Part shown: piece by piece, positions 12,359 to 63,014 of the stretch | Layout of the letters: each line of letters starts with the position of its first letter | How positions within the stretch are numbered: the stretch's first letter is position 1 | Assembly (NCBI GenBank): GCA_943736015.1 | Contig: OX031071.1 | Span: 29,420,619 to 29,484,618, forward strand | Direction: 5' to 3' | Length of the DNA: 64,000 bases | Source of the DNA: Tridacna crocea | Taxonomy: Eukaryota; Mollusca; Bivalvia; Cardiida; Cardiidae | Position numbers and translations under genes: made by a program | Notes under the pieces: generated by a model | Databases searched by the model: none | What the model was told of the DNA's origin: nothing | Seen by the model: only the letters and a program-made list of their open reading frames with translations

Positions 12359-12586
12359 TTAACCCATTACCACACAATCCCTACTCTTGACGACCCTGAA
12401 AAAGAAGCCTATTGAAAACATTGTGGGAAAAGGAGAAAATGCTGATAACCAGCATTTTCTCCTTTTCCCACAATGTTTTCTATCCTTCACAAAACAAATT
12501 TCAAATTTTCAGTCACTTTTATTTTGTTTTTTGCAAATCCTTTCGATTTGGACAAGCCTAAAATATCGCCGCTTCTAATGAGTTAA
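12359..12586 (+). mobile_element. TTAA-hp MITE, full length
   Basis: TTAA at both ends, CCCATTACCACACAATCCCT arm, near-perfect hairpin (TGCTGATAACCAGCA centre), AATTTTCAGTCACTTTTATT arm. Its right TTAA (12583-12586) is also the left TTAA of the next, oppositely oriented copy. Confidence 0.9.
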
Positions 12587-12811
12587 CCCACTGCCAAATG
12601 AGAAAAAAATAGGTTTGTCAAAATTGAAAGGAATTGCAGACGACAAAATAAAAGTGACTGAAAATTTGAAATTTCTTTTGTGAAGGGTAGGAAACATTGT
12701 GAGAAAAGGACAAAATGCTGGTTACCAGCATTTTCTCCTTTTACCACAATGTTTTCTAAAGGCTTCTTTCACATGGGCGTCAAAAGTAGGGATTGTGTGG
12801 TAATGGGTTAA
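12583..12811 (-). mobile_element. TTAA-hp MITE, full length, chained to previous copy
   Basis: Reverse orientation: TTAACCCACTGCCAAATGAG..TTGCAGACGACAAAATAAAA, hairpin with TGCTGGTTACCAGCA, then GGGATTGTGTGGTAATGGGT and TTAA. Shares a TTAA with the copy at 12359. The stretch 12812-13236 shows nothing recognisable. Confidence 0.9.
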
Positions 12812-13236
12812 AAGATTGATAGGTACTGTTATTCAGGATGAGTGAAAGCTTGATGATGGTACTACTGATCAGAATTAATTTTCAAAAGTCAACTCTTCCT
12901 GGTTGAGGAATTATCTCCGCTTGAACTTGACACGGTTTCCTGTCAAAACGCTGGCCGGGGTATTAAATCACATTCAGTGACAGCTCTAGTTTAAAACTAT
13001 TTCTTTCTGCTAGGAAATAGTACTAGTACTTTGACTAGGAGGTTCAATATTATAATTATTGTCATCTTCAAATAAATTCACATACTATTAAAAGGTATGA
13101 TTTACATTCAAATACAATTCTACACCTTATTGTTCACCCATGGCTGTTACTGAGCCTTTAAGCCTTCAACAAACGACAATAACGCGTCCACGTGTGGATG
13201 ATAAAGTAAAAGTGGCTCTTTTTATAGATGTCTCTT

Positions 13237-13662
13237 TGTTTAGGGTAGAAAACATTGGGTAAAGCAGAAAATACTGCTTACCAGCATTTTCTCCTTTCTT
13301 CTCAATGTTTTTGAAAGCCTTTCTTTATAGAGTTATCAGAACTTTGTACTGTGTGGCAAAGGATTATATGTTTACCACACAATCCCAAGTTTTAACTATC
13401 CTTGGAAAGAAGCCTTTTGAAAACAATGTGAGAAAAGGAGGAAATACTGCTTATCAGCATTTTCTCCTTTCTTCTCAATGTTTTTGAAAGCCTTTCTTTA
13501 TAGAGTTATCAAAACTTTGTATTGTGTGGCAAAAGATTATATGTTTACCACACAATCCCAAGTTTTAACTATCCTTGGAAAAAAGCCTTTTGAAAACATT
13601 GTGGGAAAAGGAGAAAATACTGGTTACCAGCATTTTCTCCTTTTCCCACAATGTCTCTATAA
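13237..13662. repeat. 173-bp tandem array of a fully palindromic TTAA-hp variant
   Basis: About 2.4 units of 173 bp. Each unit is inversely symmetric along its whole length: TTTACCACACAATCCCAAGT..GAAGCCTTTTGAAAAC, hairpin, then GTTTTTGAAAGCCTTTCT..TTGTGTGGCAAA. Both flanks are therefore the CACAATCCC-type arm, unlike the standard copy with two different arms. The array arose by local duplication. Confidence 0.8.
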
Positions 13663-13715
13663 TGTGACAGTTTTTACGGTGGCATAAAAAGCCAATTTTC
13701 TTGGTAAATACAAAG

Positions 13716-13948
13716 GTAACCCATTACCACACAATTACCTACTTTTGACGACCCTGAGAAAAAGGCCTTTAGAAAACATTGTGGGAAAAGTAGTAAATGC
13801 TGGTTACCAGCATTTACACTTTTTCCCACAATGTTTTCTACCCTTCAAAAAACACAATTAAAATTTTCAGTCGTCTATATTTATTTTGTCGTCAACAAAT
13901 GTGTTGGATTTGGACAAGCCTAAAATATTGTCGTATGGTAATGAGTTC
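13716..13948 (+). mobile_element. TTAA-hp MITE with paired hairpin substitutions and flipped centre
   Basis: The ends are degraded (GTAACCC..GAGTTCA). The stem carries GTAAATG against CATTTAC in place of GAAAATG/CATTTTC, a compensated change. The centre reads CTGGTTACCAG although the arms are in + orientation, where other copies have CTGGTAACCAG, so the centre is inverted relative to the arms. Confidence 0.85.
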
Positions 13949-13954
13949 ATATAT

Positions 13955-14174
13955 TTAACCCTTTACCCAAATGAAAAAAATACACTTGTCCAAAAGAGTT
14001 GGAGACGACAATTTAAAAGCGGCTTGAACGATAAAATTTGTCTTTGACATGAAAGAAAATATTGTGGGAAAAGGAGAAAACACTGGCTACCTGTATTTTT
14101 TCCTTTTCACAAAATATTTTCCAAAAGTCTTTATCTAAGGTTTGGTAAAATTCAGTTTTGTGGTTAAGCGTTAA
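13955..14174 (-). mobile_element. TTAA-hp MITE just upstream of the TRIM-like coding exon
   Basis: Diverged copy with TTAA at both ends and an eroded hairpin (GAGAAAACACTGGCTACCTG). Its right TTAA ends 34 bp before the splice acceptor of the TRIM-like exon, so it lies inside the upstream intron. Confidence 0.8.
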
Positions 14175-14191
14175 TGTTTGTTAATGTTTGT

Positions 14192-14208
14192 TTTCTTTCT
14201 ATTTATAG
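14192..14208 (+). promoter_or_regulatory. Splice acceptor of the TRIM-like exon
   Basis: The pyrimidine-rich TTTCTTTCTATTTATAG ends at 14208, 24 bases before the ATG at 14233. It implies at least one upstream non-coding exon that I cannot place. It is the best-supported splice site on the plus strand. Confidence 0.65.
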
Positions 14209-14232
14209 ACGTGACATCTTGCACCTGGCATT

Positions 14233-15987
14233 ATGGAAGTGTCTGGACGAAATCAGACAGGGAGTGCCGCCACAACAACAGGTGTTCAATGTGATCCTTG
14301 TTTATTGCTGAATAAAAATGAAAATGCTATACAGTATTGTGTAGACTGTGACGAGTTTTTCTGCTCTAATTGTTCATATGTGCATAAAATGTTAAAAGTA
14401 TCAAGAAATCACAAATTTTTATCTGGAAATGAAATGCCGCAACAAAAACTGACCTCAACAGAGGAAAATGTCTGTTCTAAACACAGTGGGGAAATATTAA
14501 AGTACTATTGTAAGATTCATAAGAACTTTTACTGCACAGTTTGTATAACTCTTGATCACAAGAATTGTTCCATTGAATATATAGATGACATTGCACAAGA
14601 CTTTGAGACAAGTCCAGAGTATACAACTTTAACAGAGAAATTATCAAGTCTTCTGCAGCTGTTAAAAGATATAAAGAAAACTTCCACAAGACACAGTCAA
14701 GACTTACAAACAGTGCACACCCAGTTTGTAGCAGATGTGAAATCCTTTCGTACAGAAATCAACAACCTTCTAGATTCCATGGAAACAACCATTTTGAAGG
14801 AAGCCCAGGATGTGAAGGAGTTTGATACAAAATCTGCTCAAACTGTGTCTACAACGTGTGATACAATGACCACAGACATCAATGAAATTGTCTCTAACTT
14901 AGACAAACATAAACAATACAAACAACAGCGACCGTTGGTGATCTCTGCAAAGAAAGCTGAAACCCTGATTTCTGACATAGAACACAAAATGGCGGACATA
15001 TCCAGTCAAAACAAAATTAGAAATTATAAATTTCACAAAAATGAGGAATTGCTGCATTCACTTCAATCTATGTGCAATCTTGGTACATTAGTGGATAGAG
15101 AGAAGGAGGGAGGAAAAACAGAAATGGAGAGAAAGGAGAAAGAAAACGTAAAGCTGGTCAACAAAGACCCCAAATCTGTTAGAACCCGTTATGTAGGACA
15201 AATCAATGTTAAACATTCAGAAGATAAAAATGACTGTGACATTACAGGCAGTGTAATGATAGATCCATACAGAATAGTTCTAACAGATTGTAGGAACTCC
15301 AGTGTAAAACTTGTAAATGTTGACAGTAAGAGTATTCTATCTTATCTAAAACTTTCCACACAACCATGGGATGTTACTTGTATTGATAAAAGTCAGCTTG
15401 TCATTACATGTAACAATAAATTAGTTTTTGTAAATGTTGGACAGACTTTGACTGTAAACAAAGAACTTCAAGTTAATGGATACTGTAGAGGAATTATTTT
15501 TAATGATAATCAATTATTTGTGTCATTTGTTACACCAAAACCTGCTGTTAAATTAATCAGTCTACATGGAGAAATATTGAAAACATTTTCTACAGACCAA
15601 AATGGACAACCTATGTTTAAATGTCCCTGGTATATTTGTCTTAGTAATTCCAAGTCTACACTATTTGTTAGTGACCGGGAGACAAACAGTGTGACAAGTG
15701 TTGAACTACATGGTAAAGTTCAAAATGTTTATAGAGATACTAACCTGAAGTCTCCTCGTGGTCTGACTGTAGATAGATATGATAATATTTATATAGCTGG
15801 ACGTCACTCAGACAACATACACCAGATATCTACACAGTGTAGACCCATACAAATATTACTGGATAAAACGCAAGGAATGGAAGTTCCACAGTCAGTGACA
15901 TATTGTGAAACAGAAAACAAACTTTATATCAGCCATGATTGGGGTACATATAAAAGAAATGTTTTGTCAGTTTATCAACTACAGTAG
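14233..15987 (+). CDS. TRIM-like protein: two B-boxes, coiled coil, NHL-like propeller, no RING
   Basis: The 584-residue product is encoded in one exon, as in many bivalve TRIM-like expansions. Residues about 20-60 form a first B-box-like zinc finger (C20-x2-C23, C36-x2-C39, C44-x2-C47, H51, H60). Residues 81-112 form a B-box 2 type finger (C81-x2-H84, C93-x2-H96, C101-x2-C104, H109). A helical, Lys/Gln/Glu-rich coiled coil runs from about 130 to 285, then a charged linker. The C-terminal region from about 320 looks like a six-bladed propeller; the clearest NHL-type blade is SPRGLTVDRYDNIYIAG near residue 507. No RING finger precedes the B-boxes, so autonomous E3 ligase activity is not expected; relatives act as scaffolds or in innate immunity, but this one's role is unknown. 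The ATG is chosen because it is the first in frame after the acceptor. No close AATAAA signal is seen downstream. Confidence 0.93.
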   Translation: MEVSGRNQTGSAATTTGVQCDPCLLLNKNENAIQYCVDCDEFFCSNCSYVHKMLKVSRNHKFLSGNEMPQQKLTSTEENVCSKHSGEILKYYCKIHKNFYCTVCITLDHKNCSIEYIDDIAQDFETSPEYTTLTEKLSSLLQLLKDIKKTSTRHSQDLQTVHTQFVADVKSFRTEINNLLDSMETTILKEAQDVKEFDTKSAQTVSTTCDTMTTDINEIVSNLDKHKQYKQQRPLVISAKKAETLISDIEHKMADISSQNKIRNYKFHKNEELLHSLQSMCNLGTLVDREKEGGKTEMERKEKENVKLVNKDPKSVRTRYVGQINVKHSEDKNDCDITGSVMIDPYRIVLTDCRNSSVKLVNVDSKSILSYLKLSTQPWDVTCIDKSQLVITCNNKLVFVNVGQTLTVNKELQVNGYCRGIIFNDNQLFVSFVTPKPAVKLISLHGEILKTFSTDQNGQPMFKCPWYICLSNSKSTLFVSDRETNSVTSVELHGKVQNVYRDTNLKSPRGLTVDRYDNIYIAGRHSDNIHQISTQCRPIQILLDKTQGMEVPQSVTYCETENKLYISHDWGTYKRNVLSVYQLQ

Positions 15988-16057
15988 AAAACAACACATA
16001 CAGGTGACCTGCTGTAAGGATGAGTCTATTTAACCTTGTACCACACTGTTTTGTGTT

Positions 16058-16215
16058 TTTAACCCTTTACTACACCAACTTGACTTTTAATGACCCTGAA
16101 GAAGAATTGTTTGGGAAACATTGTGGAAAAAGAAGAAAATGCTGGTTACCAGCATTTTCTTCTTTTCCCACAATGTTTCCTCCAATATCAAAGACAGAAT
16201 TTATCATTTGAACAT
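16058..16215 (+). mobile_element. TTAA-hp MITE, right arm lost, compensated stem
   Basis: Lies about 70 bp past the TRIM-like stop codon. The stem reads AGAAGAAAATG against CATTTTCTTCT where the consensus has AGGAGAAAATG/CATTTTCTCCT, a paired G-to-A/C-to-T change. The centre is flipped (CTGGTTACCAG in + orientation). The GTCGTCTGC arm and right TTAA are missing. Confidence 0.8.
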
Positions 16216-16282
16216 CATTTTACTTGCTTATCCATTTTTTTCCCTTTAATAGTAAAGAGGTAACAATCGTGAGCCATAAGAC

Positions 16283-16352
16283 TTCATAAAAACATTGTGG
16301 GTAAAGGAGAAATTGTTCTAACTAGCAATTTCTCCTTTTCCCACATTTTTTT
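16283..16352. mobile_element. TTAA-hp MITE hairpin fragment, AATTG subfamily
   Basis: Only the hairpin remains: GGGTAAAGGAGAAATTGTTC, AACTAGCAATTTCTCCTTTT and CCCACAT. The AAATTG/CAATTT stem tip matches the subfamily at 41653 and 42463. Confidence 0.6.
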
Positions 16353-16435
16353 CTCCCCATTCAATGAACAATCTTGTGATTTGAGCAATATTTAATAGGA
16401 GAAATTGTAAAAATAGTAGATTTGTTCAACTTTCA

Positions 16436-16620
16436 GTAAGGTCCTGTGTGGCTCAGTGGTAAAGTGTAGGACTTGTGACCTGGAGGTCCCAGGTTCAGGC
16501 CTCGTTGGTTCCATTTTTTTTTTCACAGGAGTGTCCTCAACTCCCAGCATCGTTTATGTATTACTGTACATTGTGTAGATCAAGATCAGCCTGCACAGAA
16601 CATAAAGTTTGATCCTAGAT
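16436..16620 (+). mobile_element. tRNA-derived SINE
   Basis: An A-box-like TGTGGCTCAGTGGTAAAGTG and a B-box-like GGTCCCAGGTTCAGGCCTCG about 40 bp apart form a tRNA-like head. A T-run and the body module GTGTAGATCAAGATCAGCCT follow; that module recurs near 11060, 28320 and 30205. The acceptor-stem pairing and CCA context of a functional tRNA are absent. Confidence 0.6.
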
Positions 16621-16631
16621 ATAAATAGTTG

Positions 16632-16715
16632 TATAAAATAGAAATGTTTTGTCTGTTAATCAACTACAGTAGAAAACAACATATACTGTTGACATGTTGT
16701 ACGGAAATGTCTTTT
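16632..16715 (+). pseudogene. Duplicated fragment of the TRIM-like gene 3' end
   Basis: Repeats 15951-16028 with modest divergence: AGAAATGTTTTGTC, the codons for the last residues (ATCAACTACAGTAG) and the 3' flank AAAACAACA.ATAC..GTGACCTG-like. The rest of the gene is absent, so this is the stub of a local duplication about 680 bp downstream, most of which was lost. Confidence 0.7.
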
Positions 16716-16757
16716 TTCATCATCAATTGTTAACTGTAGTAGTAGCAGGAATGATAT

Positions 16758-16896
16758 TTAACCCTTTACTACACATTCCTGAATTTTAACGACCCTGAGA
16801 AATAAGCCTTTTGAAAACATTGTGGAGAAAAGGAGAAAATGCTGGTAACCAGCATTTTTTCCTTTACTTTTCCCACAAAGTTTTCTGACCAATTAA
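16758..16896 (+). mobile_element. TTAA-hp MITE, right arm missing
   Basis: Left TTAA, CCTTTACTACACATTCCTGA arm and hairpin, ending at TTTTCTGACCAATTAA. The terminal TTAA is shared with the next copy. Confidence 0.8.
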
Positions 16897-17121
16897 CCCT
16901 TTCCCAAACAATCCCTGGTTTTTACGGGTCTGGAATAGTAGCCTTTTGAAAACATTATGGGAAAAGGAGAAAATGCTGGTAACCAGCATTTTCTCCTTTT
17001 CCCACAATGTTTTCTACCATATCATAGACAGAAATCATCTTTTCAGGAAGAGTTGAATTGTCGTCTGCAAGTGCTTTCAATTTGGTCTTGTCCAAAAGTT
17101 TGTCATTTGGGAAAAAGTTAA
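16893..17121 (+). mobile_element. TTAA-hp MITE, full length
   Basis: TTAA at both ends, AATCCCTGGTTTTTACGGGT arm, perfect hairpin with CTGGTAACCAG, and GTCGTCTGCAAGTGCTTTCA arm. It shares TTAA with copies on both sides. Confidence 0.9.
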
Positions 17122-17360
17122 AGAACACGTGCAGAAAAGGAGAAAATGCTGGTAACCAGCATTTTCTCCTTTCTTTTTCCCACAAAGTTTTCTGACCGAT
17201 TAAAGAACACGTGTGTCATTTGGGCCACTATGAATGTATTGTCTGCAAATGCTTTCAATTTGGAAAGGTCAAAAATGTTGTTGTGTTGTAAAAGGTTAAC
17301 CCTTTGCTTCACAATTCGGAATTTAATAGAATTGAAAGAGACGGCTTTCAATTGTCTGTT
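17118..17360 (+). repeat. MITE-derived duplicated block, copy 1
   Basis: A hairpin remnant, then AGAACACGTGTGTCATTTGG, TGTCTGCAAATGCTTTCAAT and TGTTGTGTTGTAAAAGGTTA, then a second left end starting TTAACCCTTTGCTTCACAAT. The same block recurs at 19333-19483 and 19640-19803. A Helentron-like element was later inserted at its right edge (17361). Confidence 0.7.
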
Positions 17361-19076
17361 TTTAGCTCACCTGGGCACGAAGTGCTCATGGTGAGCTTTT
17401 GTGATCGCCCAATGTCCGTCGTGCGTCGTCCACAATTTCTTTAAACATCTTCTCCTCCTAAACCACTGGGCGGATCTTGGTGAAACTTGGCAGGGATGTT
17501 CCTTGGGTGAAGCTCTACCAAAGTTGTTCAAGAGATTGAATTCCAGCCATAACTCTGGTTGCCAAGGCAACCAAAAGGGAAAAAAATAGCAAAATCTTTG
17601 AAAATCTCCTTCTCTGAAACTAGAAGGCGTAGAGCTTTGATATTTGGTATGTAGCATCTCCTAGTGGACTTGTACCAAGATTGTTCATACGATGCCCCTG
17701 GGGTCAAAACTGGCCCGACCCGGGGGTCACAATTTTGAAACATAGGAACAAAGAAGGAAAACTTTAAAAATCTTCTTCTCTGAAACTAGAAGATGCAGAG
17801 TTTTGATATTTGGTATGTAGCATCTCCTAGTGGACCTCTACCAAGTTTGTTCATATGATGCCCCTGGGATCAAAACTGGTCCCGTCCCGGGGGTCACAAG
17901 TTTGAAACATAGCAACAAAGAAGGAAAACTTTAAAAATCTTCCTTTCTGAAACTAGAAGGTGTAGAGCTTTGATATTTGGTACGTAGCATCTCCTAGTGG
18001 ACCTTTACCAAGATTGTTCATATGATGCCCCTGGGGTCAAAACTGGCCCTGCCCCGGGGGGTCACAAGTTTGAAACATTTGAACAAAGAAGGGAAACTTT
18101 AAAAATCTTCTTCTCTGAAACTAGAAGGTGCAGAGCTTTGATATTTGGTATGTAGCATCTCCTAGTAGACCTCTACCAAGATTGTTCATATGATAATCCT
18201 GGGGTCAAAAGTGGCCCTGCCCCCGGGGTCACAAGTTTGAAACATAGGAACAAAGGAGGAAAACTTTAAAATTCTTCTTCTCTGAAACTAGAAGATGCAG
18301 AGTTTTGATATTTTGTATGTAGCATCTCATAGTGGATCTCTACCAAGATTGTTCATATGATGCCTCTGGGGTCAAAACTGAACCCGTCCCGGGGGTCACA
18401 AGTTTGAAACATAGGAACAAAGAAGGAAAACTTTAAAAATCTTCTTCTCTGAAACTAGAAGGTGTAGAGCTTTGATATTTGGTATGTAGCATCTCCTAGT
18501 GGACTTCTACCAAGATTGTTCATATGATGCCCCTTGGGTCAAAACTGGCCCAGCCACGGGGGTCACAAGTTTGAAACATAGGAGCAAAGAAGGAAAACTT
18601 TTAAAAAACTTCTTCTCTGAAACTAGAAGATGCAGAGTTTTGATATTTTGGATGTAGCATCTCTTAGTAGATCTCTACCAAGAATATTCATATGATGCCC
18701 CTGGGGTCGAAACTGGCCCTGCCCCGGGGGTCACAAGTTTGAAACTTAGGAACAAAGAAGGAAAACTTTAAAAATCTTCTTCTCGAAAAGTAGAAGATGC
18801 ATTTTGCACAGTTATATACCCTGTCAGAATTATTTGTCCTTGAACTTTTATATTTGGTATATGCTTTCATATTTGGTATATGCTTTCATTGTTTGTATAT
18901 GTGTCGCTGACCTATACCGTAATAGATTTGTTTATATATTTTTTGTTGATGACGAAAAACTTGTATAGTTTAAGTCAATAAAATATTCTGAAATATTCTG
19001 GTATTTATCTTCATTGTAGACCTTTACTGCTTAGTACTCAGGTGAGCGATATAGGACCATCATGGTCCTCTTGTTT
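17361..19076 (+). mobile_element. Complete Helentron/pearl-like element, seven 167-bp core units
   Basis: The 5' end at 17361 is TTTAGCTCACCTGG with the hairpin GCACGAAGTGC. Next come ATTTCTTTAAACATCTTCTC and seven core units spaced about 167 bp (landmark TTCTCTGAAACTAGAAG near 17611, 17777, 17945, 18112, 18280, 18447, 18614). The 3' end is CAGGTGAGCGATATA, hairpin GGACCATCATGGTCC and TCTTGTTT at 19076. The 5' AGCTCACCTG and 3' CAGGTGAGCG are inverse complements. No Rep or helicase is encoded. It is nested within TTAA-hp MITE sequence: MITE material resumes right after its 3' end. Confidence 0.8.
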
Positions 19077-19108
19077 CCTTTACTTTTCCCACAAAGTTTT
19101 CTGACCGA

Positions 19109-19337
19109 TTAACCCATTACCACACGAGAAAATTTTGGACTGGTCCAAATTGAAAGCATTTGCAGACGACAAAATAAAGGTGACTGAAAAATAGAAATTT
19201 GTTCTGGGAAGGGTAGAAAACACTGTGGGAAAAGGAGAAAATGCTGGTTACCAGCATTTTCTCCTTTTCCCACAGTGTTTTCAAAAGGCTTCTTTCTCAG
19301 GGGCGTCAAAAGTAGGGATTGAGTGGTAATGGGTTAA
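19109..19337 (-). mobile_element. TTAA-hp MITE, full length, compensated stem
   Basis: TTAA at both ends. The stem has CACTGTGGG against CCCACAGTG in place of CATTGTGGG/CCCACAATG, so pairing is kept. Arms GACGACAAAATAAAGGTGAC and AGGGGCGTCAAAAGTAGGGA. Confidence 0.92.
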
Positions 19338-19483
19338 AGAACATGTGTGCCGTTTGGGCCATTATGAATGTGTTGTCTGCAAATGCTTTCAATTTGGAAA
19401 GGTCTAAAATGTTGTTGTGTTGTAAAGGGTTAACCCTTTGCTTCACAACCCAGAATTTTAATAGAATTGAAGGAGACTGCATT
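19333..19483 (+). repeat. MITE-derived duplicated block, copy 2
   Basis: AGAACATGTGTGCCGTTTGG through TAATAGAATTGAAGGAGAC, about 90 percent similar by eye to 17200-17350. The units seem to have multiplied together with neighbouring MITE pieces. Confidence 0.7.
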
Positions 19484-19640
19484 TGCGAACGTTATGACAA
19501 AGGAGAAAATGCTGGTTTCCAGTCTTTTCCCCTTTTCCCAAAATGTTTTCCACCATATCATAGACAGAAACCATCTTTTCAGCAAGAGTTGAATTGTTGT
19601 CTGCAAGTGCGCCTTTCCATTTGGACTAGTCCAAAAGTCC
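19436..19640 (+). mobile_element. TTAA-hp MITE, degenerate
   Basis: Left end CCTTTGCTTCACAACCCAGA, eroded hairpin (GCTGGTTTCCAGTC), then GTTGTCTGCAAGTGCGCC and TTTGGACTAGTCCAAAAG. The right TTAA is lost. Confidence 0.65.
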
Positions 19641-19803
19641 AAAAGAACATGTTTGTCATTTGGGCCACTATGAATGTATTTTCTGCAAATGCTTTCAATT
19701 TGGAAAGGTCTAAAATGTTAATGTGTTGTATAGGGTTAACTCTTTGCTTCACAATTCGGAATTTTAATAGAATTGAAAGAGACGGCTTTCAATTGTCTGT
19801 TCT
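19640..19803 (+). repeat. MITE-derived duplicated block, copy 3
   Basis: AGAACATGTTTGTCATTTGG through GAGACGGCTTTCAATTGTCT; its right part is nearly identical to 17295-17360. It marks the same junction sequence that the 17361 element interrupts. Confidence 0.7.
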
Positions 19804-20040
19804 TGTATTAGACGTCATTTGTTTAACCAAATCCAACACATTGAAGGCTTCTGTTTGTTGCACAACAGATCACTTTTGAAAACAATGTAGTAAAAGCAGA
19901 AATTTATTTAATTGTACTTAATTATTCATTCTAAGGCAATTTAGTGTATGTCCTTACCAAGCATTTCCTAGTTATTATGATTCTGTTAAAGAAAATAGAA
20001 ACCATTGAGGGAAAAAGAGAAAATTATGGTAACCAGCATG

Positions 20041-21224: not shown

Positions 21225-21324
21225 CTTCATTTGCTATAATGTTTTCTACCATTTCAAAAAAAACAAGTTAATTTGTTTTACCGTTGTTGGGTCATTCTTT
21301 TTGGTATTCAGCAAAACATTTCAA

Positions 21325-21542: not shown

Positions 21543-21579
21543 AAAAGGTGGGTATTTAGATTTTTTACATCTCTCCAAA

Positions 21580-23168: not shown

Positions 23169-23184
23169 TCAATAATATATATAT

Positions 23185-25600: not shown

Positions 25601-25603
25601 TTA

Positions 25604-54454: not shown

Positions 54455-54690
54455 ACTTTTAACCCATTTCACCCTACCTCCCCGACTGCAATAAATCTGC
54501 CATTCTTGACAGAATGGCGATTTAAAAACTTGTCTCCCTTACTCTCAGATAAGGTAAAAGATACGGTGAGGAAAAAGGAGAAAATGATGGTTGCCAAGCA
54601 TTTTCTCCTTTACCTACAATATTTCAAAAGGCCTTTTTCTCATTGTCTTTAAAACTCGGATTGTGCGGTATACACTAAACAAATTAATCT
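54455..54690 (-). mobile_element. TTAA-hp MITE, degraded
   Basis: TTTTAACCCATTTCACCCTA, GGAGAAAATGATGGTTGCCA, AGCATTTTCTCCTTTACCTA, GGCCTTTTTCTCATTGTC, TGTGCGGTATACACTAAA. Confidence 0.6.
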
Positions 54691-54837
54691 GCATAAATTT
54701 GTCAGATTTTGTGGTCTTCTTCCGCCTACTCAACAAGGACATGTAACAAACATTCCATTTTATATGCCCTTTCCTACTGAAGTCCATGCTATTCCCAATT
54801 AGAATGAAAAAAATTACATGAAAATAAATTAGCTTGT

Positions 54838-54940
54838 CTTTGCTCCTTCTTCACAATGTTTCACACCCTTTCAAAGACAAATTCGATCATTTAAGCTGTA
54901 CATTTTAATGTAAAAATACTTTTTGATAAGGAAAAGTTTA
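54838..54940 (+). mobile_element. TTAA-hp MITE right-half fragment
   Basis: TTTGCTCCTTCTTCACAATG, TTTCACACCCTTTCAAAGAC, GATCATTTAAGCTG. It lacks the right terminus. Confidence 0.45.
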
Positions 54941-55039
54941 CGATTTATATTCTCTGGAAGAACGATAATTTACGACCATCAATGGGACTTTGCCAATATA
55001 CTTCAGCAGAGTGCCAGATAGAGGGAGTGATATTGATTT

Positions 55040-55170
55040 CAAAGTTGAAAATATTAGTAATTCTCCAATAAACCCTATGCTGTGGGCACTCATTAGGGTC
55101 ATCGCATCGAGATGATTCAAATGAGTATCCACAACATAGGGTTTCAAAGAGAAATGATGGATTTTGAATA
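55040..55170. repeat. Imperfect palindrome
   Basis: CCAATAAACCCTATGCTGTG..GCACTCATT on the left mirrors AATGAGTATCCACAACATAG..GGTTT on the right around 55105. It explains the overlapping minus-strand open frames of 79-89 codons here. The stretch 55171-55730 shows nothing recognisable. Confidence 0.6.
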
Positions 55171-55730
55171 CCATCACTTCCTGTTATCTGGAGCTGTGCT
55201 TCAGGATGTGTCATGTGTGGGACATTTTGACTGTTCTTACAATCATTATTTCTGAATCACACCACAAACGATCAGTAATTTTAGCACACATGAGTAAATC
55301 TAAATCTTATCAACTGCTTTTCAGGAGTGTAATTCTACCATTCCATTTCTTCAGATTCAATTTGGACTTGCATAAATCACATTCTCACATGACATGTTAA
55401 TTCGGCTCTAAAAACAAAATGCATCGAAAGCCTGGTAAAATCTACGTCATTCTATCTAGACTGACATCACAACTTTGTATAAAGCAAGTTATTCAATGGA
55501 ATGTAATCTACATCCACGTTTTAGCTCATGAGTATGAACTTGTTTACCTTTCATTAAGAGTTGGTCATGTTAGAATCTTAATAATCTTCTTTCTATTCTG
55601 GTTTACCATTCAATAATCAATGTTGTGAGTTGCAATGCAAATTATTTATTGTCCCTCATAACTTGACAACCACAGTTTATTGAATTATAAACAACAATAG
55701 AAAAAACGTAATTTCTTAAATTAAGGATAG

Positions 55731-55922
55731 GGCACCATGGATTTATGTAACTTCATCTTTCAATGCCAAAATTGTACAGATTAAGCCAAGACTCAAGGTA
55801 ATCTATGATTGATGAAGGGAAGCAGCGTCTATCACCCAATCGGTTATGGATTACCCATATATGTACGTTTTTTCGGAGATGAAAGGCAATGTTACACGAA
55901 TCCTATATTGGTGCCCCATCTT
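55731..55922. mobile_element. Foldback element with GGGCACCA ends
   Basis: ATAGGGCACCATGGATTTAT..GTAAC and GTTACACGAATCCTATATTG..GTGCCC are inverse complements with small gaps. About 190 bp, non-coding. The stretch 55923-56106 is plain. Confidence 0.6.
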
Positions 55923-56106
55923 TAATGATGATGTCAGTTTATAGGCGACCGAAGTCGGGGACGAAAGAGCCCGCAATAGAATTTAAACCAAAATGGGGGA
56001 CGCTTGTTCCTTTCTTAAATTCCCCTTATTGTTTGTAAACAGGTTCATCAAAACGATTTTCGTACCATAAGAATTAGATCTATCTCTATTTGATCGCGCA
56101 GTTTTA

Positions 56107-57000
56107 CTTGACTTAAACTAGAAGGCCCTGAAGGGCCTGAATATGCTCTACTGGCAGTCAACTTGAAATGGCTACTTTTCCTAGACTGTTTGTTGGATTT
56201 TTTCAAAATCCATAGGGTTTAAGCTATTGATGAGATAAACAAACTGTGCAAATTTCACAAAAATCTGATGACAACATGCACATTTTATCGCGTAAACAAG
56301 AATTTGAAGTTTTCAACTTGAGATGGCTACTTTTCCCATATCTTTTAGTGGATTTTTTTCAAAATCAGTAGGGTTGAAGCTACTGACGTGATAAACAAAC
56401 TGTGTGAGTTTTATGAAAATCTGAAAAGAAATGCAGACTTTATCGTGTAAACAAGAATTTGAAATTTTCAACTTGAAATGGCTACTTTTCCCATACTGTT
56501 TGTTGGATTTTTTTCAAAATCAATAGGGTTGAAGCTATTGATGAGATAAACAAACTGTGCAAGTATCACGAAAATCTAGCTACAAATGCAGACTTTATCG
56601 CGTAAACAAGAATTTGAAATTTTCAAATTGAAATGGCTACTTTTCCCATACTATTTGTCAGATTTTTCTCAAAATCAATAGGGTTGAAGCTATTGATCAG
56701 ATAAATAAACTGTCCAAGTTTCATGAAAATCTGATGAGAAATGCAGACTTAATCGCGTAAACAAGAATTTGAAATTTTCAACTTGAAATGGCTACTTTTC
56801 CCATATTGTTTGTTTGATTTTTCTCAAAATCAATAGGGTTGAAGCTATTGATAAGATAAACAATCTGTGCAAGTTTCACAAAAATCTGACCACAAATGCA
56901 GACTTTATCACGTAAACAAGAAAAAGACTAACGGCCAGACAGACGGACGACCGGGGGTATAACATAATACGACCCTTCGGGCTTATAAAAAGCTTTGTTG
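56107..57000 (-). mobile_element. Helitron-type element, reverse, 145-bp core
   Basis: On the minus strand it ends at the left with GGCCCTTCAGGGCC, TTCTAGTTT (hairpin plus CTAG). About five core units (GAAATGGCTACTTTTCCCAT, TTGTTGGATTTTT, CAATAGGGTTGAAGCTATTG, ATGAGATAAACAAACTGTGC, TTTATCGCGTAAACAAGAAT) follow. The far end at 56935-57000 is AGACAGACGGACGACCGGGG, CATAATACGACCCTTCGGGC and TTATAAAAA. Same core and CTAG end as 20041. Confidence 0.72.
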
Positions 57001-57048
57001 TTTGGTAGAGAGTTTAGAACTGAGACAAGGTAACAATAACATTGACCA

Positions 57049-57877
57049 GGGTTCGAAATTCCCACATATTTACTCGCAAAATGCTAGCCAGAATTGGAAA
57101 ATGCGAGTTGAAATTTCAAGCACTTGCAAAAAAATGCGAGTGCAAATTATTGAAGAACAGTTACCAAATGTAGTAAATTCCATATGTGAATACCAAAAAA
57201 AAAGGTAATTATTTTTGTTCTGAATAAACATCGGTCATATCGCACTGAGAACACCCTTCGACGGATGTCGATAATTTTACATGTCGCCATTGAAGCGTCC
57301 GAGTTGTCGTTCGTTATCCCAGTTTCGTGAGGCAAGTGCATTCGTCTGCACTCGCAGCCGATACTGAGGTTTTGCGTTTTTTATACGGAAAAAACGGTAG
57401 GCGAATTCAATCTCTGATTTGAAACAAAAACATTTGTCAATCTTTCATGAAAAGATAAATTATTGCGCACAAATAGCAACGAGAAGCAAGTCAGACGTGG
57501 TGGACTCGCTAAACCAGTTACCGGACAGGCAGATATTCGGATGTGACACGTTTTTCATTTACAAAATCGTCCACCAGTGTAAGATTTGTAGAAATTTAAC
57601 CTCGCACTAGAACAGAAATTCAACTAAAATTGAATTGATTATTAAATGAGGGTTTTAATGTCAATTAACATTCCTTTTTTTTGGTTGTTGTCTCGGGTTG
57701 ACAGGTTACGTAATAGAATAGAATTGAATAGTTTTTACCGGCCATTCATTCTTTACAATTGGTAGGCAAGCTGAGCTTAAAAAAAAAATGCGAGTCCAGT
57801 TTTAATTTTGCAAGTGGAAATAAAAGCTACTTGCTAAAATTTGCAAGTGGATAAAAAAATGAAATTCGAACCCTGAT
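57049..57877. mobile_element. TIR element with CAGGGTTCGAA ends (hAT-like)
   Basis: The left end CAGGGTTCGAAATTCC and right end GAAATTCGAACCCTG are inverse complements. GCGAGT/GCAAGTGG motifs lie inside each end. CAGGG termini are common in hAT elements, but an 8-bp duplication is not clear. An unrecognised open frame at 57419-57610 is not credible as a transposase. Confidence 0.5.
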
Positions 57878-57967
57878 GACATAAAATTACAAAGAGTTTG
57901 AGCTGTGAAAAAGAATATTTAATATAAGGTAACTCTGTGCTGTATGATATCAATCAAGTACTCATAT

Positions 57968-58132
57968 ATATAGAGATTATTTCATCATCTTGTGGTAATA
58001 TGGGAAAAAAATTGTCGAAAAAGGTAAAGGTATGCGAAAATAACGAGTGCCGTAAGGTATGAGTTATTTTTGCGGACCTTTCCCTTTTGAAGCTATTACT
58101 TCCCCATATTAACCACAAACTGATGAAATCAA
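57968..58132. mobile_element. 165-bp foldback element
   Basis: AGATTATTTCATCATCTTGT..GGTAATATGGG and CCCCATATTAACCACAAACT..GATGAAAT pair. An inner pair (AAAGGTATGCGAAAATAACG / CATGAG-TTATTTTTGCGGAC-CTTT) extends the foldback toward the centre. Confidence 0.6.
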
Positions 58133-58332
58133 TTATATATTGTATTTCCTCCGATTATATTGTCAACAAATGCCACTTTTAAAACTAGTTGTCTCAAGTA
58201 GAACAAAAATGTTGTTCCAAACTTTCGGCAGGAGGAAAATATTCACTGTGATGGTGAAATAATTCACCCAGCTTTAATTACGACATTTCTTTACCCGTAA
58301 CATTTCTAAAATTAGACACATGAAATATAATA

Positions 58333-58563
58333 TAACCCTTTACCACACAATGACAACTTTTAACGACCCTAAGAAACAAGCCCTTTAAAAACATTGTGGA
58401 AAAAGGAGAAAATGCTGGTAACCAGCATTTTCTCCTTTTCTCACAAAGTTTTATGCTCTATCAAAGAAGATTTGCATCATTTGAGCCGCCATGAAATTGT
58501 CTTCTGCAAATGATTCCAATATAGAAAGGTCTAAAATTTTGCTGTGTGGGGGAAAAGGGATAA
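58333..58563 (+). mobile_element. TTAA-hp MITE in an N6AMT1 intron
   Basis: ATAACCCTTTACCACACAAT, full hairpin with CTGGTAACCAG, TTGTCTTCTGCAAATGATTC, right end GGGGAAAAGGGATAAA. It ends about 14 bp from the donor of the N6AMT1 exon. Confidence 0.88.
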
Positions 58564-58576
58564 ATAGTAACCCTAC

Positions 58577-58718
58577 CTGGATCATTTTCTTTTATAATAA
58601 CCAGGTAAAACAGCCCATGTTTTGACAACAGTTTGGGTATTATAGGGAGTACTTTGTCTATTACTTCCCTGCCTCTCTCCCCGCCAGCCCAAGAAGCCTC
58701 GATACCATGACTGCCCAC
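58577..58718 (-). CDS. N6AMT1 (HEMK2) exon, C-terminal half of the methyltransferase domain
   Basis: N6AMT1 is the catalytic subunit that, with TRMT112, methylates the glutamine of the GGQ motif of eRF1. On the minus strand the acceptor CCATTGTTTCTAG opens the exon and GATCCAG-GTAGGG closes it in phase 1. The 47 codons read VGSHGIEASWAGGERGREVI, DKVLPIIPKLLSKHGLFYLV, IIKENDP, which matches the family closely, as does the exon start directly after the ..TP..E segment. The following C-terminal exon was not found with confidence. Confidence 0.9.
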
Positions 58719-58899
58719 CTAGAAACAATGGAAAGTTAAGTTTAAATCATATAATTTTAATTAAAAAAATAATAGACTCATAAAAATATACAAAGTTTGG
58801 AAATATCTGATATTAGTATCCTTTTAAGGGCACATATTCATATTACTTTTATTCTGGCCACGAGCTGTCACCCGCTGACTCTGTAAGCTTCAGAATTCT

Positions 58900-59115
58900 G
58901 GTAATTTTCAATATGGCATTTAACACCCTACTCAACATTATTTCAATTTTATATCACAGCGGCTTGCGCCACTGGCTGCTTGCACACATAACCATTGTCA
59001 AAAGAATAATAGGCTGTGAACAATTAAAAAACGGTTATCATTAACTCTTGGAGAGAAATTGGCCAAGCTTGCAAGTCAAAACAACAACCCTCTGTTTCCA
59101 AGTCCTAAAGCTATC
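58900..59115 (-). mobile_element. SINE, 28020 family
   Basis: CATTTAACACCCTACTCAAC, ATTATTTCAATTTTATATCA (reverse of the conserved tail), TTGCACACATAACCATTGTC, TTGGAGAGAAATTGGCCAAG, GTCCTAAAGCTATC. Same order as 28020-28291; the tRNA head is degraded. It lies within the N6AMT1 intron. Confidence 0.65.
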
Positions 59116-59169
59116 AAACCATGCTTTCAAAAGCTGTTTTTTTTTTTTCAATGTGGTTAAAACTCAAGA

Positions 59170-59397
59170 TTAACTCTTTACCAAATGACAAAACTTTAGA
59201 TTGGTCCAAACTGAAAACACCTGCAGGCGACAAAATAAACGCAATTCAAAAATTGAAATTTGTTTCCATCAGAGCAGAAAACTTTGTGGGAAAAGGAGAA
59301 AATGCTGGTTACCAGCACTTTCTCCTTTTCCCACAATGTTTTCAAAAGGCCTATTTCTCAGGGTCGTTAAAAGTTGGTATTGTGTAGTAAAGTGTTA
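59170..59397 (-). mobile_element. TTAA-hp MITE, full length
   Basis: TTAA at both ends, hairpin with one mismatch (CCAGCACTTTCTCC), CAGGGTCGTTAAAAGTTGGT, TAGTAAAGTGTTAA. Confidence 0.92.
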
Positions 59398-59439
59398 AAG
59401 CCTACATATTTTATGGGAAAACCAAATGGTAAATACAAT

Positions 59440-59940
59440 AGATGACATTATTATACTGCAAAGAAATTTCTCGTGATCTGATTGGTTAACATGCCAGGAA
59501 CATAATTATATATCATGTACCCTGGCAAAAACCACTTAAAGCTAGTTTCCCTTTTGAGTGCCCAGTAAACATCACTACATGTACAACAGAACATCCAAAA
59601 TGGCAGCGATGATCGATCATCAGACTACATTTATGCACCAAACTACATGTTTTATTGACATCAGTTTTCATTGATTTGGGGCACTTGGGAAGGGAATTCC
59701 TATTTCGTCAGCATACTTGATTCGTAAGATCATAATACATGAATATTTCGTTTAACGCACTTTGAAAAAGTAAAAATTTGCAGTATAAAAAAATCATTGA
59801 GCGGTCAGGTGGCAGAGGACTTGGAAAGTTGTTCACCACTTTGGTGAATCATGTCGCCCCGAGCCTAAGGCGAGGTGGTCACATGATTTGACAAAGCCGT
59901 GAACAAGTCTCTAAGTCCCCTGCCACCTGACCGTACAACT
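59440..59940. repeat. Interspersed repeat I with terminal foldback
   Basis: ACACTTTGAAAAAGT..-type AT-rich body (CATCAGACTACATTTATGCA, TTGATTTGGGGCACTTGGGA, AAGGGAATTCCT), then a foldback at 59795-59938: GCGGTCAGGTGGCAGAGGAC, TTGGAAAGTTGTTCACC against GTGAACAAGTCTCTAAGTCC, CCTGCCACCTGACCG. A related copy is at 62345-62700. Confidence 0.55.
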
Positions 59941-60194
59941 AGCAATGTCACTTCTGTGACTGGTTACCAGTCTTTATCTCCTTTTCCAGGTATGTTTTCA
60001 ACATTCCTGTCTCTCTAAGGGTCATTCAAATTCAGGAGTTTGTGTTTATAAAGCCCACACAATCTATGGACAGAAAAAAACAAGTTCTGTTTCAGAAATA
60101 ATATAGTAAACTGTTCTATCCCACAGATAGATGTTAAGGTATAGCTTGTGTTTGTGTAAGGGGAGACTTATACTGCCTTGCTATAGAGCTAGCT

Positions 60195-60262
60195 TTTGTA
60201 GCGACGTGGTAGATTGTTTGCCTTGAGACCCGGAGGTCCAGGGTTCAAACATCACCAGGGAC
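60195..60262 (+). mobile_element. tRNA-like SINE head
   Basis: GTAGCGACGTGGTAGATTGT resembles an A box and GAGGTCCAGGGTTCAAACAT a good B box. No matching tRNA 3' half or CCA context is evident. Confidence 0.45.
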
Positions 60263-60318
60263 AGCTAATTGCGAAATTTGTTACAATAAGAGAAGACATT
60301 GTCACTACTGTAACATAC

Positions 60319-60402
60319 CTCGTCACTTGGTGTTACAACATAGCGTGGATTAAACAACAAAACATCCACCTCATCTGTAAGTCTTTCTGATAGACCACTC
60401 AC
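60319..60402 (-). CDS. N6AMT1 (HEMK2) exon with the catalytic motif, NPRY instead of NPPY
   Basis: On the minus strand the acceptor TTTAATTTTCTTTTTCAG and donor GACGAG-GTATGT bound 84 bp, 28 codons: VSGLSERLTDEVDVLLFNPR then YVVTPSDE. It joins in phase 0 to VGSHGIE.. in the next exon. In the family the NPPY tetrapeptide forms the substrate glutamine pocket. Here the second proline codon is CGC (Arg), one base from CCC. That may abolish activity, mark a decaying copy, or be a sequencing error. Confidence 0.9.
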
Positions 60403-60544
60403 CTGAAAAAGAAAATTAAATATCTATAAAAGCTATTATGAGCTTATTTTCCACCAATTGACAAATACTATATATTCTGTGATACCAAATTAGATGGACT
60501 GGTCGACTAGATTGATTGAAAGGTGTTTTATGCCACTTTCATAT

Positions 60545-60785
60545 TACCTCTTTACCAAACAACCAAGTTCTAGACTGGTCCAAATTGAAAGCACTTGCAG
60601 AGGACAAAATAAACGTGACTCAAAAATTGAAATTTGTTTCCAGCAGGGTAGAAAACTTTGTTGGAAAAGGAGAAAATGCTGGTTACCAGCATTTTCTCCT
60701 TTTCCTACAATATTTTCAGAAGGCATTTTCAGAAGGCTTCTGTCTCAGGGTCTTGAAAACCATGGATTGTTTGGGAAAAGGTTAA
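60545..60785 (-). mobile_element. TTAA-hp MITE with a small internal duplication
   Basis: CTCTTTACCAAACAACCAAG, GCAGAGGACAAAATAAACGT, hairpin, then TTTTCAGAAGGC occurs twice at 60712-60740. Right end GGGAAAAGGTTAA. The left TTAA is lost. Confidence 0.85.
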
Positions 60786-60892
60786 GATAACAGTTCACAT
60801 ATTCATGTGTTTTCTGGGTTTTGCCAGTACAAGGTTTGGGATCCTAAACCAGAAAATTTAAGACTTGCCTAAATTTAATTTTTTGCAAAGAA

Positions 60893-60962
60893 AAAAAAAT
60901 CAAACACAAAATAAGAATTTGTTTTGGGAACAGTACAAAACATTGTGGGAAAAGTACCATCA
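60893..60962 (-). mobile_element. TTAA-hp MITE fragment
   Basis: AATAAGAATTTGTTTTGGGA and ACAAAACATTGTGGGAAAAG, broken before the hairpin tip. Confidence 0.5.
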
Positions 60963-61032
60963 TTTCAGCTGTTTTACACAGGAAGACGTTTGATGAAAAA
61001 TTAATCCACAGGATGCATACAGGGCCATGATA

Positions 61033-61256
61033 CCCTGTTACCACAAGATCCCTACTTTTAACGACACTGAGGAAAAAGCCTTTTGAAAACATTCTTTGAA
61101 AAGGAGAAAATGCTGGTAACCAGCATTTTCTGCTTTTTCCACAATGTTTTATACCCTTCCCATATCAAATTTCAATTCTTCAGTCACATTTATTTTGTCG
61201 TCTGCAAATGCTTCCAATTTGGACCTGTCTATAATTTGCCATTTGGGAGAGTTATA
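61033..61256 (+). mobile_element. TTAA-hp MITE, near full length
   Basis: CTGTTACCACAAGATCCCTA, hairpin with CTGGTAACCAG, TTTTGTCGTCTGCAAATGCT, TTGGGAGAGTTATA. TTAA is degraded. Confidence 0.85.
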
Positions 61257-61450
61257 TACATGACTACACTTTCAACACAAATCCAAAATGGCGGTGTCAA
61301 CTGATACTAGGCTTCCACAAGACAAACATATTGAGTAGCTTGCACAATATTATTTCAAGTTTCCCTTGATGGTTGTCATTAAAGAGGAGGGAATGGATTG
61401 TTTCTGAAAATAAATTAATATAGTTACGAAATAATCGTTTGTTGTTTTTC

Positions 61451-61677
61451 TTAACCCTTTGCCACACAATCCGGAATTTTGACGACTTTGAGAAAGAAAG
61501 CAAATAAAAACATTGTAGGAAAAGGAGAAAATGCTGGTAACCAGCATTTTCTCCTTTTCTCACGATGTTATCTGCCCTGCCTAAACCAATTTTCAAATTT
61601 TCAGTCACATTTGTTTTATCGTCTGCAATTGCTTTGAATTGAACCAGACTAAAACTTTTTTGTATGGTAAAGAGTTA
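61451..61677 (+). mobile_element. TTAA-hp MITE, full length
   Basis: TTAA at both ends, CACACAATCCGGAATTTTGA, perfect stem tip, TTTTATCGTCTGCAATTGCT, GGTAAAGAGTTAA. Confidence 0.92.
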
Positions 61678-61708
61678 AACAAATACAGCAATTAAAACGA
61701 GGTGTCCC

Positions 61709-61937
61709 TTTAACTCGTTACCAAACGACAAAATTGTAGACTGGTCCAAATTGAAAGCACTTGCAGACGACAAATTATATGTAACTCAAAAATTGAAATT
61801 TGTTTCCAGCAGGATAGAAAACACTGTGGGAAAAGGAGAAAATGCTGGTTACCAGCATTTTCTCCTTTTCCCACAATGTTTTCAAAAGGCTTCTATCTCA
61901 GGGTCGTTAAAAGTCGGGATTGTGTGGTAAACAGTTA
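61709..61937 (-). mobile_element. TTAA-hp MITE, full length
   Basis: TTAA at both ends. The stem has CACTGTGGG against CCCACAATG, so one change is uncompensated. AGGGTCGTTAAAAGTCGGGA, TGTGGTAAACAGTTAA. Confidence 0.92.
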
Positions 61938-62073
61938 ATTTGTCAGGTAAACATATTGCGAAGTGTCCAAACTGATTCAATGTAACGTTAAAATGATAAT
62001 TAAATTGTCCTTTGTTGTAACTAACGATCTTTTATTTTTTGACAACAAAACATTTAAAAGCATAGTTACTTAC

Positions 62074-62094
62074 CTCCAAGTTGTTTATATCCAT
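62074..62094 (-). CDS. Probable 3' end of an upstream N6AMT1 exon
   Basis: On the minus strand MDINNLE is followed by a strong donor (TTGGAG-GTAAGT) and splices in phase 0 to VSGL of the exon at 60402, giving INNLEVSGL where the family has a similar I-x-T-D-L-V segment. The 5' side of the exon cannot be followed: a TTAA-hp MITE begins 2 bp away, at 62097. The exons for the N-terminal SAM-binding motif are not in the window. Confidence 0.4.
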
Positions 62095-62096
62095 GT

Positions 62097-62324
62097 TTAA
62101 CCCTTTACCAAACATTCTTGGTTTTCACGATCCAGAGGAAGAGGCCTTCTGAAAACATTGTGGGAAAAGGAGAAAATGCTGGTAACCAGCATTTTCTCCT
62201 TTTCCCACAATGTTTTCTACTCTTCCACAGTCAAGTTTTAACTTTTGAGTCAAGTTTGTTTTGTTGTCTGCAAGTGCTTTTAATTTGGACTAGTCGAAAA
62301 TTTTGTTGTTTGGTAAAGGGTTAA
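62097..62324 (+). mobile_element. TTAA-hp MITE abutting or interrupting an N6AMT1 exon
   Basis: TTAA at both ends, perfect stem with CTGGTAACCAG, GTTGTCTGCAAGTGCTTTTA, TTTGGTAAAGGGTTAA. Read on the minus strand, its hairpin right arm gives TTTTCCCACAATGTTTTCAG, a plausible splice acceptor, but the frame from there to MDINNLE contains a stop. Confidence 0.92.
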
Positions 62325-62344
62325 ATGAAAATATGACAAATTTC

Positions 62345-62698
62345 TATCACAGTGTCTGTGACATCACAAAGTTAATCCACCAAACTGCATGTTTAACCAG
62401 CGATGTCAATTCTCACTGACATCATTGAATTGGGGCACTCAGAAGGGAAATTTTTTGTGACATCATTGAATTGGGGCACTCAGAAGGGAAATTCTTTGAC
62501 ATCATTGAATTGGGGCACTTAGAAGGGAATTTTTTTGTCGTCAGCGTACACAATTTGTGGGTAGATAAACAGGTAAATGTTAATGAAAATATATTGGAAT
62601 GGTAAAACTTTGCAGAATAATAAATTTGTTCTACAGTCAGGGGGCTTGGGACTTGGAAACTTGTTCAAAGCTGTGGCAAATTATGTTGCCATCTCATC
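62345..62698 (+). repeat. Interspersed repeat I with 3 short tandem units
   Basis: CCACCAAACTGCATGTTTAA, then three units of TGACATCATTGAATTGGGGC and ACTCAGAAGGGAAATT, ending CAGGGGGCTTGGGACTTGGA. Related to 59600-59800, without the second foldback arm. Confidence 0.6.
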
Positions 62699-63014
62699 TT
62701 AACCCTTTACAACACAATCCCGTCTTTTAACGACCCTGTGAAAGAAGCCTTTGAAAACATTGTGGGAAAATGAGAAAATGTTGGTAACCAGCATTTTCTG
62801 CTTTTCCCACAATGTTTTCTTCCCTTCCAAAAACAAATTTCAGTCTCTTAGTCTCATTTATTTTATCCTCTGCAAATGCTCCCAAGTTGGACTAGTCTAT
62901 AATTTTGTCATCTGCAAATTAATGCTCCCAATTTGGGCTAGTCTATAATTTTGTCGTCTGCAAATGCTCCCAATTTGGGCTAGTCTATAATTTTGTCGTT
63001 TGGTAAAGAGTTAA
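62699..63014 (+). mobile_element. TTAA-hp MITE with triplicated right end
   Basis: TTAACCCTTTACAACACAAT, hairpin, then three tandem units (about 42-47 bp) of TCTGCAAATGCTCCCAATTT and GGGCTAGTCTATAATTTTGT before the terminus GGTAAAGAGTTAA. 316 bp instead of about 228. Confidence 0.9.

Follow-up and report, generated by a model that had tools for sequence, protein, structure and literature searches.

How do the two arms of a hairpin come to carry substitutions that face each other in a transposon whose copies are mostly decayed? The question is raised by a 64,000-nt stretch of the Tridacna crocea genome (contig OX031071.1, here C16, positions 29420619-29484618; hereafter the window), which belongs to an assembly of 1.05 Gb in 31 contigs. 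The window holds many copies of a miniature inverted-repeat transposable element (MITE) of 229 bp, bounded at each end by TTAA, with a 67-bp near-perfect palindrome in its middle. A profile of the element was seeded from three window copies and then refined, and in the resulting consensus the palindrome is perfect, with 33-bp arms around a 1-bp centre. A sequence-only reading had pointed to seven copies with facing substitutions and ascribed them either to selection on the foldback or to homogenisation of the arms. The hairpins and these substitutions are present, and the excess of paired changes reaches beyond what founder copies passed on.

Paired changes in the window and their founders

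The 64 window copies that cover the stem are spread over 11211..62917. Of their pair cells, 1666 are intact and 260 are changed on one side; double changes are complementary in 31 cells and non-complementary in 13. Under a column shuffle 9.1 complementary doubles are predicted, and none of 2000 shuffles reached the observed 31. At least one unpaired stem change occurs in 60 of the 64 copies and at least one paired change in 20. The statement that paired substitutions keep the hairpin intact was thus right about the excess and overstated about intactness. The stem diverges less than the arms outside it, also after a control for base, and it decays nonetheless.

The same holds for the seven named copies. 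Four of them, first given as starting at 13716, 16058, 36558 and 42463, are the copies at 13717, 16059, 36559 and 42464. All seven carry facing changes, but only the copy at 19109 is fully paired. The others retain mismatches at pairs 13, 14 and 15 (13717), 20 (16059), 22 (41653), 20 and 33 (42464), 33 (38660), and 2, 5, 21 and 27 (36559). The right arm of copy 41653 reads CCAACAGTG and had been misread as CCCACAGTG.

Much of this pairing is inherited. Clustering by flanks alone, which took 172 of 230 copies and left out 58 with fewer than 170 columns, returned a young class of 65 copies, an older mixed class of 98 and a class B of nine. Class B has 54% identity to the main classes in its flanks and 86% in its stem. 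Eight of its nine consensus stem differences form four facing complementary pairs (3, 8, 13 and 20), an arrangement that eight differences would reach by chance with a probability of about 7e-6; the ninth, at pair 21, affects one side only and is polymorphic. It is this second MITE family that has the GGTGAAATT state, and copy 36559..36786 (minus strand), with other flanks around the same palindrome, is one of its members.

Founder subfamilies also occur within the main classes. Young-class copies with C-G at pair 26 have their own flank diagnostic, 159C, in 10 of 13 cases versus 0 of 41. This CACTG/CAGTG subfamily includes the full-length copy 19109..19337 (minus strand), whose perfect central palindrome spans 19216..19282 (33-bp arms, 1-bp centre), and copy 38660..38888 (plus strand), which adjoins 38885-39100. 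In the old class, four sampled members of a subfamily paired at 26, 8 and 3 lie 0.07-0.16 apart in their flanks; for comparison, five pair-8 carriers average 0.39 from other old copies. Copies 41653..41879 (plus strand), which carries these three paired states (AAATTGCTCGT), and 42464..42690 (minus strand) were placed in this subfamily by their flanks.

Five of the seven named copies therefore owe their pairing to two founder subfamilies and the second MITE family. The founders do not account for copies 13717 (pair 11) and 16059 (pairs 14 and 32). Across the window, pairs 26, 8 and 3 hold 16 of the 31 complementary cells, and 14 of those 16 show C-G, T-A and C-G, respectively, the states that mark the founder subfamilies or the second family. 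Some one-sided states look amplified as well: at pair 28 there are 41 left-changed versus 12 right-changed copies, and 16 copies have a left A at pair 26. A perfect stem thus seems to be no strict requirement for spread.

Recurrent paired changes beyond founder inheritance

Genome-wide pattern counts, in which the rest of the 35-mer stem core was kept fixed, extend the test beyond the window. Pair 16 is intact at 173,858 places, changed on one side at 10,012 (5078 + 4934) and changed on both at 691. Independence, with left and right totals assumed equal, predicts 144 places changed on both sides, 57 of them complementary and 87 not. The first 50 places listed out of the 691 divide into 41 complementary (21 T-A, 16 G-C, 4 C-G) and nine non-complementary ones; extended to all 691, this makes about 567 and 124 places and puts the complementary class at about ten times its independent expectation. 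The non-complementary number, which lies near its expectation, thereby acts as a control within the same count. When left 16 was instead combined with right 15, this shifted control gave 206 and 246 places, about 226 per combination. Pair 15 has 1150 places changed on both sides, with 37 complementary among the first 50 listed. Where both sides have changed, their bases are strongly associated, with an odds ratio of 168 for pair 16 and of 16 for pair 15. These complementary fractions rest on the first 50 places listed for each pair, tallied by eye. The complementary types at pair 16 (21:16:4 of 41) resemble the one-sided spectrum (51:34:15 of 100); the one-sided spectra come from 100 rows tallied by eye, and that for pair 10 is approximate.

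Most of the pair-16 events appear to be independent. We fetched 40 of the 41 listed complementary copies and 20 one-sided ones. Four of these 60 (L032, L042, L050 and L056) lack the base expected in one pair-16 column or in both, probably owing to an alignment shift or to an adjacent copy; we retained them. The flanks of the paired copies are as star-like around their class consensus as those of controls, with mean ratios of 0.77-0.89 versus 0.74-0.82 (groups of three or more for the paired copies). Close kin of the same type, with a ratio under 0.5, are limited to L046/L049, L062/L063 and L036/L042, compared with 18 of 429 control pairs, and 34 of the 40 copies have no close same-type relative in the set. 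Star-like flanks, together with close pairs no more frequent than among controls, argue that most of these changes arose separately. The outer stems vary among the complementary copies listed. Twelve of the paired copies are young and 28 old. The old-class share (28/40) compares with 14/43 in intact controls and with 9/20 in one-sided copies, the latter difference being not significant (p = 0.09); the enrichment of old copies fits the expectation for a two-step change.

A row-wise test on the random sample agrees. It leaves out class B and pairs 3, 8 and 26, and gives no expectation to 27 gappy copies. Complementary doubles number 4 versus 0.26 expected in copies with one or two changed pairs, 8 versus 1.6 with three or four, and 20 versus 6.9 with five to seven, together 32 versus 8.7, and they involve 15 different stem pairs. 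In well-preserved stems about 5% of the changed pairs would have been copied across from the other arm; there is no excess once mismatches are many. The paired excess therefore extends beyond founder inheritance. The possibility, raised by the sequence-only reading, that a few founder subfamilies could explain everything held for five of its seven copies and failed for the family, since an excess beyond them exists. Facing changes above independence that recur in unrelated copies are what template-switch homogenisation of an inverted repeat would leave.

Proposed arm-to-arm templating and its alternatives

The centre of the palindrome supplies a second clue. In the samples, 28 of 37 centre changes are A to T, and left-anchored counts across the genome give T at 1917 places versus G at 663. 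Over the whole element the ratio of A>T to A>G is about 1, and the centre thus flips from A to T about three times too often, as spacer inversion during template switching would have it. A centre T occurs in 7 of 40 paired copies, 0 of 43 intact controls and 3 of 20 one-sided copies, a comparison confounded by age. Paired changes seem less frequent close to the loop: at pairs 1-11 they make up 2 of 118 changed pairs, versus 30 of 407 further out (p = 0.026), and the estimated share copied across is about 1.3% at pair 10 (non-founder types) versus about 5% at pair 16. This gradient hints weakly at hairpin-primed synthesis with the innermost bases as primer. Breakage at the palindrome centre was rejected, since truncation ends in the sample show no visible pile-up there, as judged by inspection rather than by formal test.

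We consider local arm-to-arm templating, by template switching or cruciform repair and acting on top of founder inheritance, the best explanation, with a probability of roughly 0.6. Amplifying lineages would already have borne some paired states that their descendants repeat: C-G at pair 26, the combination of 26, 8 and 3, C-G at pair 10, and pairs 3, 8, 13 and 20 in the second family. In addition, a mutated arm may recurrently template the rewriting of its partner arm, the two being separated by the one-base loop only. Candidate routes are a template switch of the nascent strand and mismatch repair in an extruded cruciform. The outcome would be either a complementary change or a reversion, and the 1-bp spacer may invert in the process; both the molecular route and the reversions are inferred. 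Arm homogenisation, one of the two causes first proposed, is thus supported by the excess of complementary doubles in mostly unrelated copies and by the flip of the centre base.

Several observations weigh against this explanation or limit its reach. At pair 10, C-G makes up 41 of the 44 complementary doubles listed; 17 of 20 fetched copies have their nearest neighbour at 0.07-0.15, and their flank variants are common in part, the commonest being found in 8 of 20. C-G at this pair is a founder subfamily, and the low rate estimated from the remaining types there suggests little copying across. The random sample has no excess in copies with eight or more changed pairs (24 versus 22.2 expected), and a shuffle within the old class without pairs 3, 8 and 26 is not significant (23 versus 19.8). 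A founder with a centre T could also yield the excess of T. Template switching would leave its most specific mark in conversion tracts of several bases, and none turned up: of the six copies with two paired changes, none has them at adjacent pairs. After the base control, divergence of the inner stem relative to the flanks is 0.50 in the young and 0.75 in the old class, a deficit that unbiased conversion would not produce by itself.

Could inheritance suffice? If all paired changes had arisen in a few source copies and spread by transposition, with the insertions then decaying neutrally, one would see what is seen at pair 26 with its flank diagnostic, in the tight old-class subfamily, at pair 10 and in the GGTGAAATT state of the second family. 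This account is already weakened, and unlikely in our view, by the three complementary types at pair 16 in proportions like those of one-sided changes, by the 34 copies there without a close same-type relative, and by the scatter over 15 stem pairs. Inter-copy recombination or gene conversion could instead have set paired stem variants on unrelated flanks. The states at pair 26 and at pairs 3/8 do occur in all four combinations, as such exchange would give, yet it would spread few stem haplotypes, and the places listed show three complementary types at pair 16 and two at pair 15; the varied outer stems at pair 16 speak against it too. Paired bases made by assembly or polishing belong to the same group of explanations, and since reads of ordinary length would span the 67-bp palindrome, misplaced reads should be rare. 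We regard this group as very improbable.

Selection for the foldback is the other cause that had been proposed. Only well-paired sources would transpose, whether through a transposition complex or a hairpin RNA, and compensated variants would win. The two families, far more alike in stem than in flanks and differing in the stem mostly by complementary pairs, agree with this, as do consensus stem pairs that are all matched in both main classes while terminal-repeat pairs 6, 15 and 18 are not (163 copies). Selection on foldback DNA could have acted in a few active source copies, given that the stems of founders and families differ mainly on both sides of a pair. The seemingly amplified one-sided states count against it. 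Selection also cannot act on every one of several hundred thousand insertions that have mostly decayed, and it is in mostly unrelated copies that paired changes recur. We therefore find selection a doubtful cause of the excess. A hairpin RNA, such as a microRNA precursor, was rejected as a candidate: among one-sided changes, those producing G-U on one strand are as frequent as those producing it on the opposite strand (266 versus 271), and no Rfam family scores above its gathering threshold in the window. Selection on a processed hairpin RNA is not supported.

It is also conceivable, though improbable, that the palindrome is a functional DNA module of at least two otherwise diverged TTAA MITE families and takes part in their amplification. 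A cruciform or hairpin would then prime copying or be recognised in transposition, with arm templating as a by-product. If true, this would help to explain the 0.5-0.9 million copies and why the families have the stem, and not the flanks, in common.

The mechanism of arm-to-arm templating is already known. In yeast, template switching between the arms of short inverted repeats yields both homogenisation and spacer inversion, and short inverted repeats of proteobacteria are more conserved than their surroundings (PMC8604942). As in the MITE stem, facing arms are made complementary and the spacer flips, in yeast mostly on perfect repeats. The yeast cases concern single genes, in strains with reconstructed ancestors, and multi-base events (PMC8604942), whereas here a dispersed MITE changes single base pairs and ancestors are not available. 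Template switching has also been described as a source and keeper of RNA hairpins, although the authors call the strongest evidence for the maintenance of short RNA stems circumstantial (PMC8794818). There, too, compensatory changes come from copying and not from two selected steps, but in functional RNA genes (PMC8794818). The loci studied here are transposon copies, most of them decayed, and selection therefore confounds the reading less than in RNA genes. What is unusual is the scale, extrapolated to about 0.5-0.9 million copies. Our limited literature search found no report of arm homogenisation within a MITE palindrome.

The element family and its copies in the window

TTAA stands on both sides in 86 of 93 copies aligned to both ends (window and random loci), and the bases beyond it are not conserved. 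One shared TTAA joins 12 of 290 neighbouring MITE match pairs. The termini read TTAACCCTTTACCACAC on the left and GTTTGGTAAAGAGTTAA on the right and form imperfect terminal inverted repeats (TIRs). Elements of the piggyBac type have the terminal motif CC[C/T]T and short TIRs (PMC2872659). The TTAA ends, this motif with short TIRs, and the combination of short length and high copy number are all found here, and we assign the element, from its TTAA ends and CCC...GGG termini, to the putatively piggyBac-type, non-autonomous MITEs. Kolobok elements likewise duplicate a TTAA target and occur in molluscs, but their termini are 5'-RR and YY-3' (PMC9587614). The MITE starts with CCC and ends with GGG or GAG; the CCC at its left terminus favours piggyBac, and Kolobok was ruled out.

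The piggyBac transposase domain DDE_Tnp_1_7 has 118 matches in the genome, many with open frames. Among the three loci whose surroundings were read, one has 16-bp perfect TIRs, TTAACCCTTTATATAC (beginning TTAACCCTTTA), whose first 11 bases are common to the MITE; another carries TTAACCCT-type ends, and the third gave no clear TIR. A transposase partner with the full MITE ends was not found among these three of the 118. Within the MITE, TIR columns 6, 8, 11 and 15 co-vary with 224, 222, 219 and 215 between subfamilies. Over 163 copies, the state seen most often is a mismatch at pairs 6, 15 and 18 of these repeats; within the old class taken by itself, 6 and 15 match. We therefore rejected a general homogenisation of the TIRs.

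Even apart from its hairpin, the family stands out by its abundance. Sampling 10 kb at each of 25 fixed positions on 13 contigs gave 664 stem-covering copies per Mb (bootstrap 508-820); two of the stretches have none, and the family fills about 15% of the sampled bases. Extrapolation gives about 0.53-0.86 million copies in the genome. The window, with 1000 stem-covering copies per Mb, is moderately rich.

The closest parallel among known families comes from Acropora corals. Their CMITEs are piggyBac-related TTAA MITEs of about 100 bp with an estimated 1600 or so copies in A. millepora, and they resemble the present MITE in TTAA target duplication, CCCTTT-type termini, tandem arrays, and an internal region that is more conserved between families than the ends (PMC2872659). 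They differ in length (about 100 versus 229 bp) and in their far smaller copy numbers (PMC2872659). A palindrome common to two diverged families recalls that conserved internal region, for which the CMITE authors suggested a role in transposition (PMC2872659). A word search of the CMITE paper (PMC2872659) returned none of palindrom-, hairpin, stem or secondary structure. A search of IMG/VR with a 29-place pattern of the core gave no relatives, although it may pass over entries from this genome or a close one.

Several further copies illustrate the range within the window. The full-length copies 12359..12586 (plus strand) and 12583..12811 (minus strand), the former running from TTAA to TTAA, lie in opposite orientations and share one TTAA. 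The pair-11 change (A-T to T-A) of the young-class copy 13717..13948 (plus strand) is the sole such case in the samples. Copy 16059..16225 (plus strand), paired at pairs 14 (G-C to A-T) and 32 (A-T to G-C), was too short for the clustering. Young-class copies with C-G at pair 26 are also found at 32138..32366 (full-length, plus strand) and 36291..36517 (minus strand). The second class B copy, 43525..43732 (minus strand), has a partly deleted stem and sits between two main-class copies with which its TTAA ends are common. Copy 43729..43957 (minus strand) is paired at pairs 15 and 21 among several unpaired changes. Copy 62097..62324 (plus strand), with a fully matched stem and 18-bp matching TIRs, folds as a long hairpin (z -11.6).

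MITE segments also take part in tandem structures. Duplications that include the hairpin occur at 13261-13643 and 35455-35860 (173-bp and 202-bp units), and a 42-bp unit repeated 3.2 times at 62860-62999 begins inside the right arm of a MITE copy. On contig C2 (59345817-59393160), five copies of one identical doubly changed hairpin core lie 11-13 kb apart, a spacing that suggests a large tandem array. A second tandem family consists of 167-bp repeats at 17592-18801 (7.2 copies, 89% matches) and 26177-27121 (5.7 copies, 73%). A further, unrelated inverted repeat, imperfect and with arms of 60 bp around a 12-bp loop, is located at 59802-59933. MITE copies closely flank both sides of a 584-aa open frame at 14233-15987 (plus strand). 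The frame is TRIM-like, with a B-box zinc finger (PF00643) and, below the cut-off, a weak NHL repeat. By eye, the region around 16435-16500 resembles the head of a short interspersed nuclear element derived from a transfer RNA (tRNA); ARAGORN reports no tRNA gene in the window.

Paired changes are usually taken as proof of selection for an RNA fold. In this family they recur in copies that are mostly decayed, which makes them measurable as a mutational process. With its short palindrome dispersed in several hundred thousand copies, the genome offers a natural assay of the rate at which one arm is rewritten from the other, including its dependence on loop distance and on mismatches and the flipping of the spacer. 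The family also counsels caution: covariation in palindromic repeats is no safe ground for inferring hairpin RNAs.

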